From Rhizomicrobium sp. (lineage in GTDB: Bacteria > Pseudomonadota > Alphaproteobacteria > Micropepsales > Micropepsaceae): a DNA stretch of 64,000 bases. The DNA lies in assembly GCA_037200985.1 (NCBI GenBank), contig JBBCGJ010000001.1, forward strand, positions 1,464,756-1,528,755. The letters run 5' to 3'. Both the position numbers and the translations under genes were made by a program. Below, one piece after another: positions 50,427-56,328 of the stretch. The stretch's first letter is position 1. Every line of letters starts with the position of its first letter. The notes beneath the pieces are model-generated. The model was not told where the DNA came from. It was given only the letters and a program-made list of their open reading frames with translations, and did no database searches.

Positions 50427-51158
50427 GTGACCGAGCAGCACAACGCACGCGTACCGCAGTTTTTCCTGACGCCCGGCGGGCCTTGCCCCTATTTGCCCGG
50501 CCGGATCGAGCGCAAGGTCTTCGCCCGGCTGTCCGGCACCTTCGCCCAGCCCTTGAGCGAGGCGCTGACCCATTCCGGCTTCCGCCGCAGCCAGTCCATC
50601 GCCTACCGCCCGGCCTGCGAGGGCTGCTCGGCCTGCGTCTCGGTCCGCATCCTGGTCAACGAATTCGCGATCTCCCGCAGCTTCCGGCGGGTGGAGAAGC
50701 ACAATGCCGACCTGGTGCGCAGCGAGGTCGTGGCGGAGGCCACCCGCGAGCAGTTCGCGCTGCTCCGGACCTATCTCGACTCCCGCCACGCAGGAGGCGG
50801 CATGTCGGACATGGGCCTGTTCGACTATGTCGCCATGGTCGAGGAGACGCCGGTCGACACCCAGATCGTCGAGTACCGCCGCGCCTCGAAGGATGGGCGG
50901 CCCGGCGCGCTGATCGCCTGCGCCCTGACCGATGTGCTGCGCGACGGCGTATCGATGGTCTACAGCTTCTTCCATCCGGGCGAGGACGCGCGGAGCCTCG
51001 GCACCCACATGATCCTGGACCATATCCGCGACGCCAAGAGCCGCGGGCTGCCGCATGTCTATCTCGGCTATTGGGTCGAGGGCAGCGAGAAGATGTCCTA
51101 CAAGACCCGCTTCCGCCCGATGGAGGCGCTGGGCCGCGAAGGTTGGGCGCGGATTTAG
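50427..51158 (+). CDS. bpt: Aspartate/glutamate leucyltransferase (Bpt)
   Basis: A 243-aa N-degron enzyme that moves Leu from Leu-tRNA to proteins with N-terminal Asp or Glu, marking them for ClpSAP. It shows PCPYLPGRIERKVFARL near 18-34, GFRRSQSIAYRPACEGCSAC near 51-70 (Cys cluster), SDMGLFDYVAMVEETPVDT near 127-145 and the C-terminal LGYWVEGSEKMSYKTRFRPM. Start is GTG 50427. It is the last housekeeping gene before the accessory island. Confidence 0.93.
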   Translation: MTEQHNARVPQFFLTPGGPCPYLPGRIERKVFARLSGTFAQPLSEALTHSGFRRSQSIAYRPACEGCSACVSVRILVNEFAISRSFRRVEKHNADLVRSEVVAEATREQFALLRTYLDSRHAGGGMSDMGLFDYVAMVEETPVDTQIVEYRRASKDGRPGALIACALTDVLRDGVSMVYSFFHPGEDARSLGTHMILDHIRDAKSRGLPHVYLGYWVEGSEKMSYKTRFRPMEALGREGWARI

Positions 51159-51509
51159 AAAACGCGCCGCACATTCGAACGGAAAAGACGGTTCGAAGGA
51201 CGGGAAGTTCGCGCAATGCCTTGAGGCGACTTCCATTTCGGCGAGGATAGATGGTCTGGCGGCGCGATAACGCATGCGACAGTCGTCCAAATGCTTGCAA
51301 TTTTCGGGATATAGATGAGATGGTGCTTGGACCGACTCGGTTCAAGGGGTGGGTGCTCTCCTAAACCGCCCCTCGGTGTCCTAGTTCGTTCTGGAGGGTG
51401 TCCGAGTTAGGTGGGACGTTGTGCATGATGCAATGGTGGGATTAGGACTCATCCGCATTTCTAGCGAGATGAGGCACAACCCCGACGCCCGCACTTGTTC
51501 GGGACCAAT

Positions 51510-51541
51510 GCGGCGGTAATGCACTTCGCCATTACCGCCGC
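51510..51541. repeat. 11-bp hairpin in the gene-free stretch
   Basis: GCGGCGGTAAT (51510-51520) pairs perfectly with ATTACCGCCGC (51531-51541) around a 10-nt loop. No T-run follows. It may be part of a structured RNA or a protein-binding site. Confidence 0.45.
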
Positions 51542-51679
51542 GTTCTTGGAACTGCGAGGTGTAGCCCTCTCCCGAAGGTGATGACGTTATCACTCACTCA
51601 GAATGCGTGAGATGTTTTGACCATCGATTCGTAGGACGAGTCTTTCAACGGAGACGGCGCTCCAGATTGGCGGGATTTT

Positions 51680-51845
51680 CGGTGGTGCGAAAGTTCGATC
51701 TCTCAGACCAAATATGCGCTGGCTGGCGCAATTTTATTACATTTCCAGAAAGTATATATGTTTCAGTAGGTTAATGGGTGTAAAAGGGCCAAATTTTTAC
51801 CATTCAATTTATATTTGATCTGGGAGTTGAACCTTCGCACCACCG
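51680..51845. repeat. 166-bp element bounded by long inverted repeats (MITE-like)
   Basis: The left 36 bp (51680-51715) and the right 35 bp (51811-51845) are inverted copies: both read CGGTGGTGCGAA from the outside, then GTTC, CTC, CAGA and CAAATAT, with 31 of 36 positions identical and one gap. The 95-bp interior is AT-rich and has no open frame. Such a form suits a miniature inverted-repeat transposon or a hairpin RNA. No target duplication is seen (TTTT left, TTAT right). Confidence 0.65.
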
Positions 51846-51938
51846 TTATTGTTTTCTTCATGCGGAAACGTGATATTCCGCCTGTCGGGTGCCGCTGGTC
51901 GGCTCGATATGGATCATCCCAGCCCGACAACAAATTCC

Positions 51939-51969
51939 GCCCCGCACCTCATCGGTGCGGGGCTTTTTT
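51939..51969 (+). terminator. Strong plus-strand intrinsic terminator
   Basis: GCCCCGCACC pairs perfectly with GGTGCGGGGC around a 5-nt loop and is followed by TTTTTT. On the plus strand no open frame leads into it, so it would end a transcript from the gene-free stretch. Its right part overlaps the last codons and stop of the minus-strand DUF3800 gene. Confidence 0.85.
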
Positions 51970-52458
51970 CTGGAACTCAGTCCACCCGAGACGCGCAAAT
52001 TCGATCAACTCGGAGGCGTCCAGGAATACCTTTAATCCGTCAAGACGGTCTTGGTTTGGCCGCCGATAGAAGAACGGGAGCAGCCGTTCAAAATAAGGAT
52101 ACGTCAAATCCCGGCTCTTGAACGCACGATAGACATTGTAGGCGCACAAATCAGCGAGTTGAACGCCGTTGGACAACTCGCTGCGAGCGAAGAATGGATA
52201 TTCGATGATGTGCCGGAATTTTAGGTTCTGATTTCCACTCCGCTGGAAAAAGGCGTGTTTCATAGCAACAGCACGATTTAACTGGATGCTCGTATCGTCC
52301 ATGACGATCAGCGCATTATGCTTCGGATGATATATGTTCATAAAATTCTCGATGCGCTCGAGAATTAGTTCGTACGCCTTCTTATGGAGAATTTCGTGTG
52401 TGATGTGGTCGTGCAAGTGCCGTTTATCAATTACGACTGCAAAGATCGTCGCGTGGCA
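51949..52458 (-). pseudogene. DUF3800 protein, 3' fragment (interrupted by IS5-family element)
   Basis: This part codes the C-terminal two thirds of a DUF3800 protein: ATIFAVVIDKRHLHDHITHE, then ILERIENFMNIYHPKHNALIVMDD split over the middle, RAVAMKHAFFQRSGNQNLKF, and RSELSNGVQLADLCAYNVYR. It has no start of its own. The 5' part is on the other side of the IS at 53288-53643. DUF3800 proteins have an RNase H-like fold and are often found in accessory islands; the role is not settled. Confidence 0.85.
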
Positions 52459-52466
52459 AGGGTCTA

Positions 52467-53287
52467 GGGTCCAGACTCATAAAGTCCACCACACGATAGC
52501 AGCGACGAGGCATACGGAGGCTAGGAAGTTTCTGGCGAGCCTGTCGTAGCGTGTGGCGATGCGCCTGAAGTCCTTGAGGCGGCAGAAGGCGTTCTCGATC
52601 TTGTGTCGCTGCTTGTAGGATTTTCTGTCGAAGCTGAAGGGCTGCTTGCGGTTCGATCTGTTGGGCACGACGGGCTTGGTGCCGCGCGCCGTCAGCCATA
52701 ATCGCAGTTCTTCGCTGTCGTAGGCTTTGTCGCCGAGCAGCTTCTTGGCGATCTTGCTTCGGCGGATGAGACGCTGGGCCGGCGGGCAATCGTGCGCCTG
52801 GCCGCCGGTCAGGAGGATGGAAAGAAGACGGCCCTTAGCATCTGCGATTGCGTGGATTTTCGTGTTTCGCCCGCCGCGCGAGCGGCCGATCGCCTGCTTA
52901 AGCTCCCCCTTTTTGCGCCCGATGCCGAGCGGTGGGCTTTGACATGCGTCGAGTCGATCATCTGGGTATCGGTGGATCGTCCGCGCTCCGCCAATTTGCG
53001 GAACAGCCGCTCCCAGATGCCGCGCTCGGCCCAGCGCACGAAGCGATTGTAGATTGTCGTATGGGGGCCGTATTCCGGCGGGCAGTCGCACCACCGGCAG
53101 CCGCTCTTCAAGACATGTAGGATGCCGCTGATTACGCGACGGTCGTCCACACGATCTTTGCCGCGCACGTCCGTCGGCAAGTGCGGCTCGATCCGAAGCC
53201 ATTGCTCGTCGCTCAGCCAAAACAGGTTGTTCCGCATCCCAATGCCTCCGAATCACGAAGCAACGGAATCATCAACCGATTCAACCG
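52467..53287 (-). mobile_element. IS5-family insertion sequence
   Basis: About 820 bp inside the DUF3800 gene. The ends are approximate: left GGGTCCAGACTCAT (from 52467) and, read inward from the right, CGGTTGAATCGG (from 53287) share GGT and GA(C/A)TC with a 2-nt gap, so the inverted repeats are imperfect. No clean target duplication was found; CAA occurs on both flanks. The single transposase gene has a frameshift site. The codon and base make-up differ little from the chromosome. Confidence 0.8.
52477..53237 (-). CDS. IS5-family transposase, two frames joined by -1 frameshift
   Basis: The first frame (ATG 53237) reads MRNNLFWLSDEQWLRIEPHL, the DUF4096-like helix-turn-helix, and MIDSTHVKAHRSASGAKRGS with the first catalytic Asp. 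The second frame, one base back, continues GRKKGELKQAIGRSRGGRNT, LGDKAYDSEELR (second Asp) and QRHKIENAFCRLKDFRRIAT (Glu) to 52477. The switch lies at the run AAAAAGGGGG (minus strand; 52905-52914), a normal slippery site for this family. The joined protein is about 252 aa and has its full DDE set. Confidence 0.85.
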
Positions 53288-53643
53288 ACAATGACTTTTT
53301 TGGGTTTCGGCCCTAATTGCTCGTAAAATTTGTTCGCGAGCCGCGTGCGGTCATCATCGGTTAGTCCAGACAGAAAAGGGCTTTTGTTCGTGCGTTCTTT
53401 CACATTTCGCAGCCAATTTGATTTGACTTCACAATCTGCGAGGTCAAAGGGCCCCTTTCCTTCGCGTCGAAGCCATCCCTCCAACTCAAGTTTGAGCAGT
53501 GAGATTTCGCGATCGAATTTTCGCCAGTTGTTTTCAAAAATGCCCACGGCAAGAAGGACGTAGATATGATCCTTCTCCGGACGCCCATTTCCGCCCACGT
53601 CGGGATCTCGGCTGCCGCTTTCATCGAAATAGAAGAGATACAT
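53288..53643 (-). pseudogene. DUF3800 protein, 5' fragment
   Basis: Codes the N-terminal part: MYLFYFDESGSRDPDVGGNG (the DESG motif), HIYVLLAVGIFENNWRKFDR, and TRLANKFYEQLGPKPKKVIV, then enters the IS and stops at a TGA. The start ATG is at 53643. Read with 51949-52458 it makes one protein of about 290 aa before the insertion. Simple removal of the IS with one CAA copy does not restore the frame, so the junction may have decayed. Confidence 0.83.
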
Positions 53644-53807
53644 GGCGCAATTCCGATGGAGCTTTTCCCGATAACGTTATTATCTAGTCGCTGACAGACA
53701 GGTCCAAATCAATTTTCAATTCAGCAGGATCGCTCTCGGCGTCATAAATTTCTGAGACGTTCATCGGGGAAGGAATCGTCATCGCTAGGTTCCTCACGGA
53801 GGCTGCA

Positions 53808-54035
53808 ATGGACGAGCCCTATTTTAGCGCCAGCATCGACAACTCGACTTCGCTGTGTCTGTCGCCATTGAGTGATCGCGGCGCGGCGGCCACCAGCCTC
53901 GACCCGAATCACGCAGAAGCGTACTTTCTTTACGAAAGAACCCAAACGGATGGCGACCCGGAAATATCAGTAATCGCACAGGTATCGACATCAGACGCGG
54001 CCCTTAGGCCGAGTAAACTGCTGAATCTGGAGTAG
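53808..54035 (+). CDS. Possible small protein (75 aa), unknown
   Basis: Not recognised. A GGAGG lies 5 nt before the ATG at 53808, a good ribosome site. The product (MDEPYFSASIDNSTSLCLSP..., with LDPNHAEAYFLYERTQTDGD near 32-51 and a leucine end) is acidic, has no transmembrane segment and has protein-like composition. A 10-bp hairpin follows at 54073-54097. It lies in the accessory island between the DUF3800 gene and the GNAT gene. Confidence 0.5.
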   Translation: MDEPYFSASIDNSTSLCLSPLSDRGAAATSLDPNHAEAYFLYERTQTDGDPEISVIAQVSTSDAALRPSKLLNLE

Positions 54036-54072
54036 TGCAGGCTCTACGGTAAATCGCCTCACCTTCAAGCTT

Positions 54073-54097
54073 TGCGGCGTGTCGGTCACACGCCGCA
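54073..54097. terminator. Hairpin after the 75-aa frame
   Basis: TGCGGCGTGT (54073-54082) pairs perfectly with ACACGCCGCA (54088-54097) around CGGTC. No T-run. It sits between the convergent 75-aa frame and GNAT gene and may act for both. Confidence 0.45.
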
Positions 54098-54130
54098 GCC
54101 TCCCAATTGTACCATTCCCGTTGCACAGCC

Positions 54131-54619
54131 TCACGCCGCGCGCCACATCTCCAACTCGTCGTAGAACACCCCGCCCACCTTCATCGAGCGGGGCTTGCGG
54201 CCGGTCACGGCGAAGCCGTGGCGCTCGTATAGCTTGATGGCGCGGGTGTTTTCGGATTCGACGGTCAGCACCAGCTGCTCCGCCCTGCCCTTCGCGTAAT
54301 CGATGAAATTCGTCATCAGCGCATCCGCCGCGCCGGTGCCCCGGACGGCCTCGCGGACATACATCGCGCCCAGATGCGCGACATGCGCCGTCTTCTTCGA
54401 AGTGCTCTCCGTCGAGAAGGCGTTGATGCCCATGAGCGCGCCGTCGACAAACACGCCGAACCAGATGCGGGTCTCCAGATGCTCGCGCCAGCGTTCGAGC
54501 GGAAAGGCGCCTTCGACGTCGGGATCGGCCGAGAACGCGGTCGGGTGCAGGCGCAGCGCCTCCAGCCGGATGTCGCGCAGCGCCTCCGCGTCGCCGGCGG
54601 TCAGGCGGCGGACGATCAC
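54131..54619 (-). CDS. GNAT-family N-acetyltransferase
   Basis: A 162-aa acetyltransferase. Start VIVRRLTAGDAEALRDIRLE, acetyl-CoA motif MYVREAVRGTGAADALMTNF near 86-105, and LVLTVESENTRAIKLYERHG near 116-135. The GTG start at 54619 overlaps the metG stop (GTGA), so the two genes are coupled. The substrate is unknown. Confidence 0.88.
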   Translation of the reverse strand: MIVRRLTAGDAEALRDIRLEALRLHPTAFSADPDVEGAFPLERWREHLETRIWFGVFVDGALMGINAFSTESTSKKTAHVAHLGAMYVREAVRGTGAADALMTNFIDYAKGRAEQLVLTVESENTRAIKLYERHGFAVTGRKPRSMKVGGVFYDELEMWRAA

Positions 54620-56328
54620 GCTTGCGTGCCGCCGAAGCGGGCGCGCCACTCCGCGACCTGCTCGTCGGTGATCTTGGCGAACAGGACCGGCGGCGGATCG
54701 ATCGTCTGGCCGGGCTCGAGCTGGTCGAGGAACTGCGCCATCGGCGCGTCCGGCCAGGGGACGATCGGCGGCGCCGGCATGATCGCCTGGTGGATGTGGC
54801 GCGAAATGGCCGGCATCACCGGCCAGCACAGATGGCCCAGCAGATGGACGAGGTTGAGCCCCATGCGGACGCCCGCCGCGGCGCGGTCGCGGTCGGTCTT
54901 GATCGCCGTCCAGGGCGCCGCCCGGGTGATGTATTCGTTGGCGACGACACAGATCGCGCGCAACTCGGACAGGGCTTTGCGGAACTCGCAATTCTCCAGA
55001 TAATCCGTGTACCGAGCAATCAGCGTGTCGAGCTCGGCGCAGACCGCCTGCTCCTCCGGGCCGTAGGCGCCCTCGCCCGGCACCTTGGCGTCGAATTTCG
55101 CGGCGCAGTATTTGGTGATCCGGTTGACGAAATTGCCCAGGACGTCGTTGAGGTCCTTGTTGATCACGCCGGCGAAATGCTCCCAGGTGAAATTGGTGTC
55201 GGCGCTTTCCGGCGCGTTCGCCATCAGGTAATAGCGCCAGTAATCCGCCGGCAGGATGTCGAGCGCGCCGTCCATGAAGATGCCGCGCTTGCCGGAGGTC
55301 GAGAACTTGCCGCCGTCGTAATTGATGTAGTTGAAGCCCTTCAGCCGGTCGACCTTGTGCCAGGGCTCGCCGGTTCCCAGGATCATCGCGGGGAAGATGA
55401 TGGTGTGGAAGGGGACGTTGTCCTTGCCCATGAACTCGACATAGGTGACGTCCTTGGCGTCGTACCACCAGCTCCGCCAGGCCGCGTCGTCGAGCCGGTT
55501 CTTGTCGGCCCATTCCTTGGTCGCGGCGATGTACTCGATCGGCGCGTCGAACCAGACATAGAACACCTTGCCCTCGAGCTTGCCGTCGGCGATGTCGTCC
55601 GGCACGGGAAAGCCCCATTCGAGATCGCGGGTGATGCCGCGGTCCTGCAGGCCCTCGTCCAGCCATTTGTTGGCGATGGAGGTGACGAGCACCGGCCAAT
55701 CGTTTTTGTGGCCCGCGATCCAGGCGCGCAGCTCGTCGACGAATTTGGACTGCTTGAGGAAGAGGTGGACGCTGTCGCGGATCTCGATGTCCTTCGCGCC
55801 GGAGACCGCCGAGCGCGGCTCGATCAGGTCGACCGGATCGAGGACGCGGGTGCAGTTCTCGCACTGGTCGCCCCGGGCGTTGGCGTAGCCGCAATGCGGA
55901 CAGGTGCCGATGACGTAGCGGTCGGGCAGGAAGCGGCCGTCGGTCGCCGAATAGGCCTGCTTGGTGGTGCGGACGTCGAGATGGCCGTTGGCCCAGAGCC
56001 GGCGCGCGAAATGCCAGGTGAGCTCGCGGTTCTGCTCCGACGAGGAGCGGCCGAAATGGTCCCAGGAGAGGCCGAAGCGGGCGCCGAGATCGGCCTGCAC
56101 CGCGTGCCATTTGTCGCAATAGTCGGCGACGGGGATGCCGTCCTCGGCGGCGGCGAGCTCGATGGGGGCGCCGTGCTCGTCGGTGGCGCAGATCGCCAGC
56201 GTCTCGTAGCCCCGCGCCCGGCAGAAGCGGGCATAGACGTCCGCCGGCAGCATCGAGCCCACGAGATTGCCCAGATGCTTGACGCCGTTGACGGACGGGA
56301 TGGCGGAGGTGATGAGGACGCGTTTCAT
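54616..56328 (-). CDS. metG: Methionyl-tRNA synthetase
   Basis: A 570-aa class I synthetase. The HIGH-type motif is SVNGVKHLGNLVGS near 12-25, the zinc knuckle CPHCGYANARGDQCENC near 144-160, and the KMSKS region is GGKFSTSGKRG near 337-347. These departures from the textbook motifs are the rule in this alphaproteobacterial subfamily. The C-terminal half is the anticodon-binding helical domain. Length is normal for the type without the dimerisation tail. Confidence 0.95.
   Translation of the reverse strand: MKRVLITSAIPSVNGVKHLGNLVGSMLPADVYARFCRARGYETLAICATDEHGAPIELAAAEDGIPVADYCDKWHAVQADLGARFGLSWDHFGRSSSEQNRELTWHFARRLWANGHLDVRTTKQAYSATDGRFLPDRYVIGTCPHCGYANARGDQCENCTRVLDPVDLIEPRSAVSGAKDIEIRDSVHLFLKQSKFVDELRAWIAGHKNDWPVLVTSIANKWLDEGLQDRGITRDLEWGFPVPDDIADGKLEGKVFYVWFDAPIEYIAATKEWADKNRLDDAAWRSWWYDAKDVTYVEFMGKDNVPFHTIIFPAMILGTGEPWHKVDRLKGFNYINYDGGKFSTSGKRGIFMDGALDILPADYWRYYLMANAPESADTNFTWEHFAGVINKDLNDVLGNFVNRITKYCAAKFDAKVPGEGAYGPEEQAVCAELDTLIARYTDYLENCEFRKALSELRAICVVANEYITRAAPWTAIKTDRDRAAAGVRMGLNLVHLLGHLCWPVMPAISRHIHQAIMPAPPIVPWPDAPMAQFLDQLEPGQTIDPPPVLFAKITDEQVAEWRARFGGTQA

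Follow-up and report, generated by a model that had tools for sequence, protein, structure and literature searches.

The question raised by this locus is what the inverted repeat at positions 51680..51845 represents in the window, by which we mean the whole 64,000-nucleotide stretch of Rhizomicrobium sp. DNA that was analysed. The original prediction offered three answers, a miniature inverted-repeat transposon (MITE), a large regulatory stem-loop or a structured RNA, in a stretch thought to be free of genes. The element, to which no strand is assigned, consists of two arms (51680-51715 and 51811-51845) around an AT-rich interior. Alignment of the arms gave identity in 31 of 36 columns with one gap, and when the element was used as a BLAST query on the genome it comes from, its own opposite arm was matched at 40.1 bits (E 7e-4). 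Among inverted pairs of the window whose arms are separate and no more than 400 bp apart, gapped scoring ranked the 166-bp element first; the four entries with higher gapped scores are self-overlapping palindromes. By ungapped scoring the repeat was reduced to only 17 nt at 94%, and it was absent from the 25 longest of the 42 inverted pairs in the window. Owing to this combination of top gapped and low ungapped rank, we consider the repeat distinctive as a gapped stem and not by its ungapped arm length. Folded as RNA the element reached -62.3 kcal/mol, versus a mean of -41.5 kcal/mol for shuffled sequences (z -5.4), and its value was equalled by 0 of 200 shuffles. Arm identity, fold and rank among separated gapped pairs together confirm that the predicted inverted repeat is real.

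The description of the interior as AT-rich and without an open frame also held. The GC content is 0.41 for the element and 0.36 for its interior, compared to 0.65 for the window, and no open reading frame of at least 60 residues was found wholly within the element; a mechanical 84-residue frame covers its last 31 bp. A separate hairpin, with a 15-bp stem in which 14 of 15 positions pair, an 8-nt loop and no T run, was observed at 51507-51544, 135 bp to the left of the element.

The genomic setting of the repeat is a gap of 2.97 kb (51159-54130) between ate (50427-51158; PF04376/PF04377) and the metG side, where two genes at 54131-56328, opposite ate, are ones that we take, from BLAST positions, to be a GNAT-like gene and metG. 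The repeat and all of the features described below (a small RNA, a DUF3800 gene and an insertion sequence) lie inside this gap. Of 80 ate loci from relatives, 50 also included the GNAT-like gene or metG, with metG present in 49. The gap measures between a few and some tens of bases in relatives' loci L042 and L054 and holds 1-2 kb of other cargo in L037, L041 and L069. Since the inserts of relatives differ or are nearly absent, the gap is, as judged from these comparisons, an insertion-prone spot. A long inverted repeat was present in two of 17 ate-metG gaps scanned, and the one arm inspected in each was unlike the element. A strong inverted repeat was noted in the same gap of a relative at L043:5755-5950, and its first arm differs from the element.

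The gap also contains a dispersed repeat (51296-51357) with the core CTTGGACCGACTCGGTTCAAG, other copies of which lie in the same genome at G000:C1:287567, 1989758, 2263432, 2315022 and 2750791. Counted at up to three mismatches, copies of CTTGGACCGACTCGGTTCAAG number six in the own genome, nine in G051, three in G052, one in G012 and none in G020. Several longer copies (~80 bp) have inverted ends, for example GTCGGGAT...ATCCGAC, and for that reason the repeat resembles a REP-like or small mobile element. Its copies showed no conspicuous RNA fold in common.

The inverted-repeat element has features expected of a MITE, being short, bounded by terminal inverted repeats and without a coding frame, and it shares with MITEs its size, its inverted ends and its AT-rich non-coding interior. 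It is unlike them in being single-copy, in having no target duplication and in having no parent that we could find. The own genome is a single contig of 4.64 Mb, in which a 186-bp query matched itself and its own arms alone and the exact 11-mer GGTGGTGCGAA occurred at the two ends of the element and nowhere else. The element was present in one of 69 genomes of the genus, its own, with no match in the 68 others; 48 of these 69 genomes reach 90% completeness with no more than 5% contamination. At the four end positions tested the flanks shared at most 2 nt, so that no longer target-site duplication was found. Searches further afield gave comparable results: no exact arm pair in viral contigs, only chance-level matches of one arm to plasmids, no further match to the element at E<=1 in 191 comparison loci (1.10 Mb), and, in a 20-mer scan of 1.02 Mb of loci, three matches with four mismatches that were unpaired and chance-like. 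Neither the own genome, as judged by the exact 11-mer, nor limited plasmid and viral searches revealed a parent transposon bounded by the same ends.

Several copies and a target-site duplication are two of the features that define a MITE family; both were sought and neither was found in these searches, and assignment to such a family was rejected. The original prediction had proposed searching the genome and its relatives for copies as its own check, and by that test the missing second copy and duplication disfavour a mobile family while leaving room for a lone relic. An alternative is that the element is nevertheless a true, non-autonomous MITE whose parent is missing from the genomes searched. 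The matching outer ends, the length of 166 bp, the AT-rich and frameless interior and the position in a gap where relatives carry insertions are all compatible with this, but the single copy, the 68 other genomes of the genus without it, the flanks without duplication and the chance-level plasmid matches to one arm make it a doubtful explanation.

The surroundings of the repeat proved not to be gene-free, as there is a conserved small RNA from 51884 onward and a minus-strand DUF3800 gene that ends at 51949. The RNA core, placed on the plus strand at 51884..51929 from sequence conservation and fold, is a predicted three-way junction of helices P1, P2 and P3. A 1271-bp query matched genome G050 at exactly 51846-51932, and across the core all 46 of 46 bases were identical. 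When 385 genomes of the class were searched with a 127-bp query, seven matched: the own genome, three in which the core was covered (G269, G364 and G457) and three matches off the core (G273, G318 and G154), which were dropped. A match in G077 with three mismatches was likewise dropped, lacking the flanking stem. We then used a search model, R1, built from five sequences with a hand-drawn structure of 12 pairs. R1 identified four of the 385 class genomes at 70.2-74.9 bits, with the next match at 26.1 bits; at E<=0.1 it matched 40 genomes in all, of which the other 36, with scores of 19.8-26.1 bits, were discounted as noise. The loci of 26 of those 36 weak matches were compared with DUF3800, and none of the 26 had a homolog at E<=1e-3. 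In the family of G457, R1 found the RNA in two of 14 genomes, adding G480, and in the order of G269 it found the same two genomes (G269 and G364) among four, while a 29-base core pattern allowing up to three mismatches occurred in two of 96 genomes of the own family.

The core is therefore carried by six genomes in three genera and three families: the own genome (G000) and G050 (genus g1, family f1), G269 and G364 (g163, f142), and G457 and G480 (g229, f80), with 35 of 49 core columns invariant. In both G269 and G364 the RNA is flanked by anmK and hisB, a conserved location, and in G050 it lies beside panB, 55 bases from the end of a contig. Viral contigs scanned for the RNA and for the protein yielded nothing, and searches of plasmid and phage DNA with the RNA gave partial, weak matches only, those in phage DNA mostly on the terminator stretch. 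The sequence groups differ by 1 nt in length, which shifts the reading frames and speaks against a conserved peptide encoded by the core.

Unguided RNAalifold analysis of the six sequences returned a three-way junction of 14 pairs with no pair broken in any sequence (P1, positions 1-7 with 39-45; P2, 8-11 with 17-20; P3, 27-29 with 36-38), approximately the structure drawn by hand for R1. One pair changes on both sides (GC, UA and CG), two become G-U in two sequences each, one is U-G throughout and 10 of the 14 are invariant. In a shuffle test, the covariation score together with the percentage paired was equalled in four of 500 shuffles, whereas the number of doubly changed pairs was equalled in 346 of 500 and the pair types in 259 of 500. 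With a sample of six sequences that amount to three close pairs, covariation support for the junction is real but thin. The RNA is likely to correspond to the plus strand, since the G-U cells would become A-C on the opposite one.

A promoter-like site for this RNA is present on the plus strand at 51849..51877 (TTGTTT, 17 bases, GATATT), its -35-like box beginning 3 bp to the right of the inverted repeat. The same arrangement, a -35-like TTGTTT or TTGACA, 17 bases, a -10-like hexamer, six bases and then GTCGGG, was found in four of the six carriers, and the spacing from promoter to core in the window is the same as in G050, G457 and G480; G269 and G364 have the -10-like hexamer alone. A simple promoter scanner listed no promoter at 51849-51877. 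On the other side of the core is an intrinsic terminator at 51939..51969 on the plus strand, its stem (51939-51963) identified by a terminator scan and its T run read off the sequence. The strong terminator noted originally near the repeat is thus present, and it belongs to the small RNA. By eye, terminators also follow the RNA in G457, G480 and G050, and in G269 a T run comes directly after the P1 stem. A transcript from 51884 to the terminator would be ~85 nt. The earlier suggestion of a structured RNA was close to right and slightly misplaced in position: the RNA is adjacent, at 51884-51929, and excludes the inverted repeat.

Possibly, the inverted repeat could itself be functional, either as a cis element of the RNA promoter or as a transcribed hairpin of its own. 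Its end lies very close to the -35-like box and its fold is very stable, but the element was not found at the RNA loci of G050, G457 and G480. Moreover, the mismatches between its arms comprise one that would be G-U if the plus strand were transcribed, two that would be G-U on the minus strand and one that would be neither; with the G-U cells split in this way, they show no consistent strand preference. We regard this explanation as quite improbable, and a conserved hairpin RNA made by the repeat, as first suggested, is not supported. The reading we prefer, that the repeat is a lone and probably transposon-derived insertion, a relic, is favoured by the three RNA loci that have no element and by the similarity to G050, which begins at 51846, the first base after it.

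Beyond the RNA core are two minus-strand segments with similarity to a single DUF3800 protein of G457. The C-terminal part (51949..52467; Pfam PF12686) is 65% identical to residues 109-267 of that protein and the N-terminal part (53308..53643) is 62% identical to residues 1-111, or 63% over 110 residues in a second comparison. Against a cut-off of 21 bits for PF12686, the C-terminal part scored 42.1 bits and the G457 protein 65.9 bits, both of which pass, and the N-terminal part alone had no match to Pfam. Between them is an IS5-family insertion sequence on the minus strand at approximately 52468..53307, with ends placed from the points at which the DUF3800 matches stop. Its transposase (52477-53256) matched NCBIfam NF033580.1 at 162 bits, above the cut-off of 110. 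By eye, the ends of this element are followed by CTAG and CTAA; CTAR is the target of the IS5 family, which these would fit. From these alignments, the two segments are one DUF3800 gene split by an IS5-family element.

The DUF3800 gene is arranged tail-to-tail with the RNA in three of the six carriers (the window, G457 and G480), which represent two families, and its stop lies ~20 bp from the core in the window and ~40 bp from it in G457 and touches the last core columns in G480. In G457 the relative of the gene is intact, and in G480 it is 75% identical and in the same place, with its last part in another frame. Proteins of the window subtype (E<=1e-10) were found in two of 385 class genomes, both of which have the RNA. 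No DUF3800 gene is near the RNA in G269 or G364, and in G050 the contig ends 55 bases past the match, so that the six loci divide into three with the gene, two without it and one at a contig end. Searches of PADLOC, and of the PDB by sequence, gave no match.

Association with RNA is a known property of this protein family: a published account describes DUF3800 as having an RNase H fold and, with reference to Weinberg et al. 2017, as accompanied by putative ncRNAs (PMC10910872), and two others record that Rfam lists DUF3800-I and -IX (PMC11701678) and mention DUF3800-IX (PMC7657543). In the whole window, Rfam gathering scores were reached by two tRNAs only. Matches of the core stretch to Rfam 15 at E<=10 were all well below gathering scores, several of them on the terminator hairpin, and the DUF3800 models had no match at E<=10 to the window stretch or to the G480 core. 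This applies to DUF3800-I, DUF3800-IX and the other Rfam RNAs that, like the core, are linked to DUF3800 genes. Membership of the DUF3800-VI RNA family (RF02915) was rejected as well, the gathering score being unreached. The core RNA is thus new to Rfam 15, and it is absent from the literature passages on DUF3800 RNAs that we consulted.

DUF3800-VI RNA nevertheless offers the closest comparison. In a distant sample comprising every DUF3800 record found (five plasmid and two phage), it was upstream of the gene in seven of seven loci, on the same strand and ending 20-55 bases before the annotated DUF3800 start. Like the core it is a three-way junction of ~50 nt beside a DUF3800 gene, and by eye a terminator follows it in the five plasmid loci, as here. 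Its sequence is different, and neither model matches the loci of the other, R1 having no match in the seven distant loci. The helices of the DUF3800-VI model have 8, 7 and 5 pairs, versus 7, 4 and 3 in the new RNA, and a junction segment of six invariant nt in the new RNA is only 2 nt long in that model. The DUF3800-VI RNA precedes its gene and shares its strand, whereas the new RNA is tail-to-tail with the gene. By layout, as far as these comparisons reach, the core RNA resembles the DUF3800-linked kind and is outside family RF02915. At one of the comparison loci, on an Agrobacterium plasmid (L186:2172-2280), an ar15 sRNA (113 bits) was observed just upstream of the DUF3800-VI RNA and DUF3800 gene.

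It could be argued that the new RNA acts independently, as a trans-acting or terminator-like small RNA, and is beside DUF3800 by chance in some genomes. The conserved anmK-hisB location in the two genomes without DUF3800 and the T run that directly follows P1 in G269 would suit this. It does not readily account for the close tail-to-tail packing with DUF3800 in two families, with stops ~20 bp or ~40 bp away or touching, or for the known linkage of RNAs to DUF3800 genes (PMC10910872), one being present in all seven distant loci examined, and we think it unlikely. The small RNA is probably DUF3800-linked, with its partner gene broken here.

The inverted repeat, taken alone, is ordinary. The explanation that we favour for the locus as a whole, and consider somewhat better than even, is that a lone, probably transposon-derived insertion abuts the promoter-like site belonging to the gene of a small RNA that is the partner of DUF3800, and that the pair has decayed here. 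The insertion would have landed against the promoter-like site, and the RNA may serve the DUF3800 protein as a guide, a substrate or an inhibitor, which is also presumed of the other DUF3800-linked RNAs. The pair looks decayed in this strain: its protein gene is interrupted by the IS5-family element and the inverted repeat stops 3 bp before the -35-like box, while the RNA remains intact. Transcription of the RNA, its link to the protein and any function are what we infer from this arrangement.

More tentatively, and as a proposal that we hold to be possible more than probable, one DUF3800 lineage may use a tail-to-tail RNA, different in sequence and with the same helix order, in place of the upstream DUF3800-VI RNA. 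The pair would then spread between alphaproteobacterial families as a protein-RNA module, potentially defence-like or toxin-antitoxin-like, and the RNA could outlast the protein, as in G269 and G364 and, in effect, in this strain. For the question of what such pairs do, this RNA offers a good test case, being compact, sharply conserved, bounded by a predicted start and terminator and closely packed against a protein partner. That it also occurs where the gene for the protein is missing or disrupted is relevant to whether the RNA restrains the protein or works independently of it.
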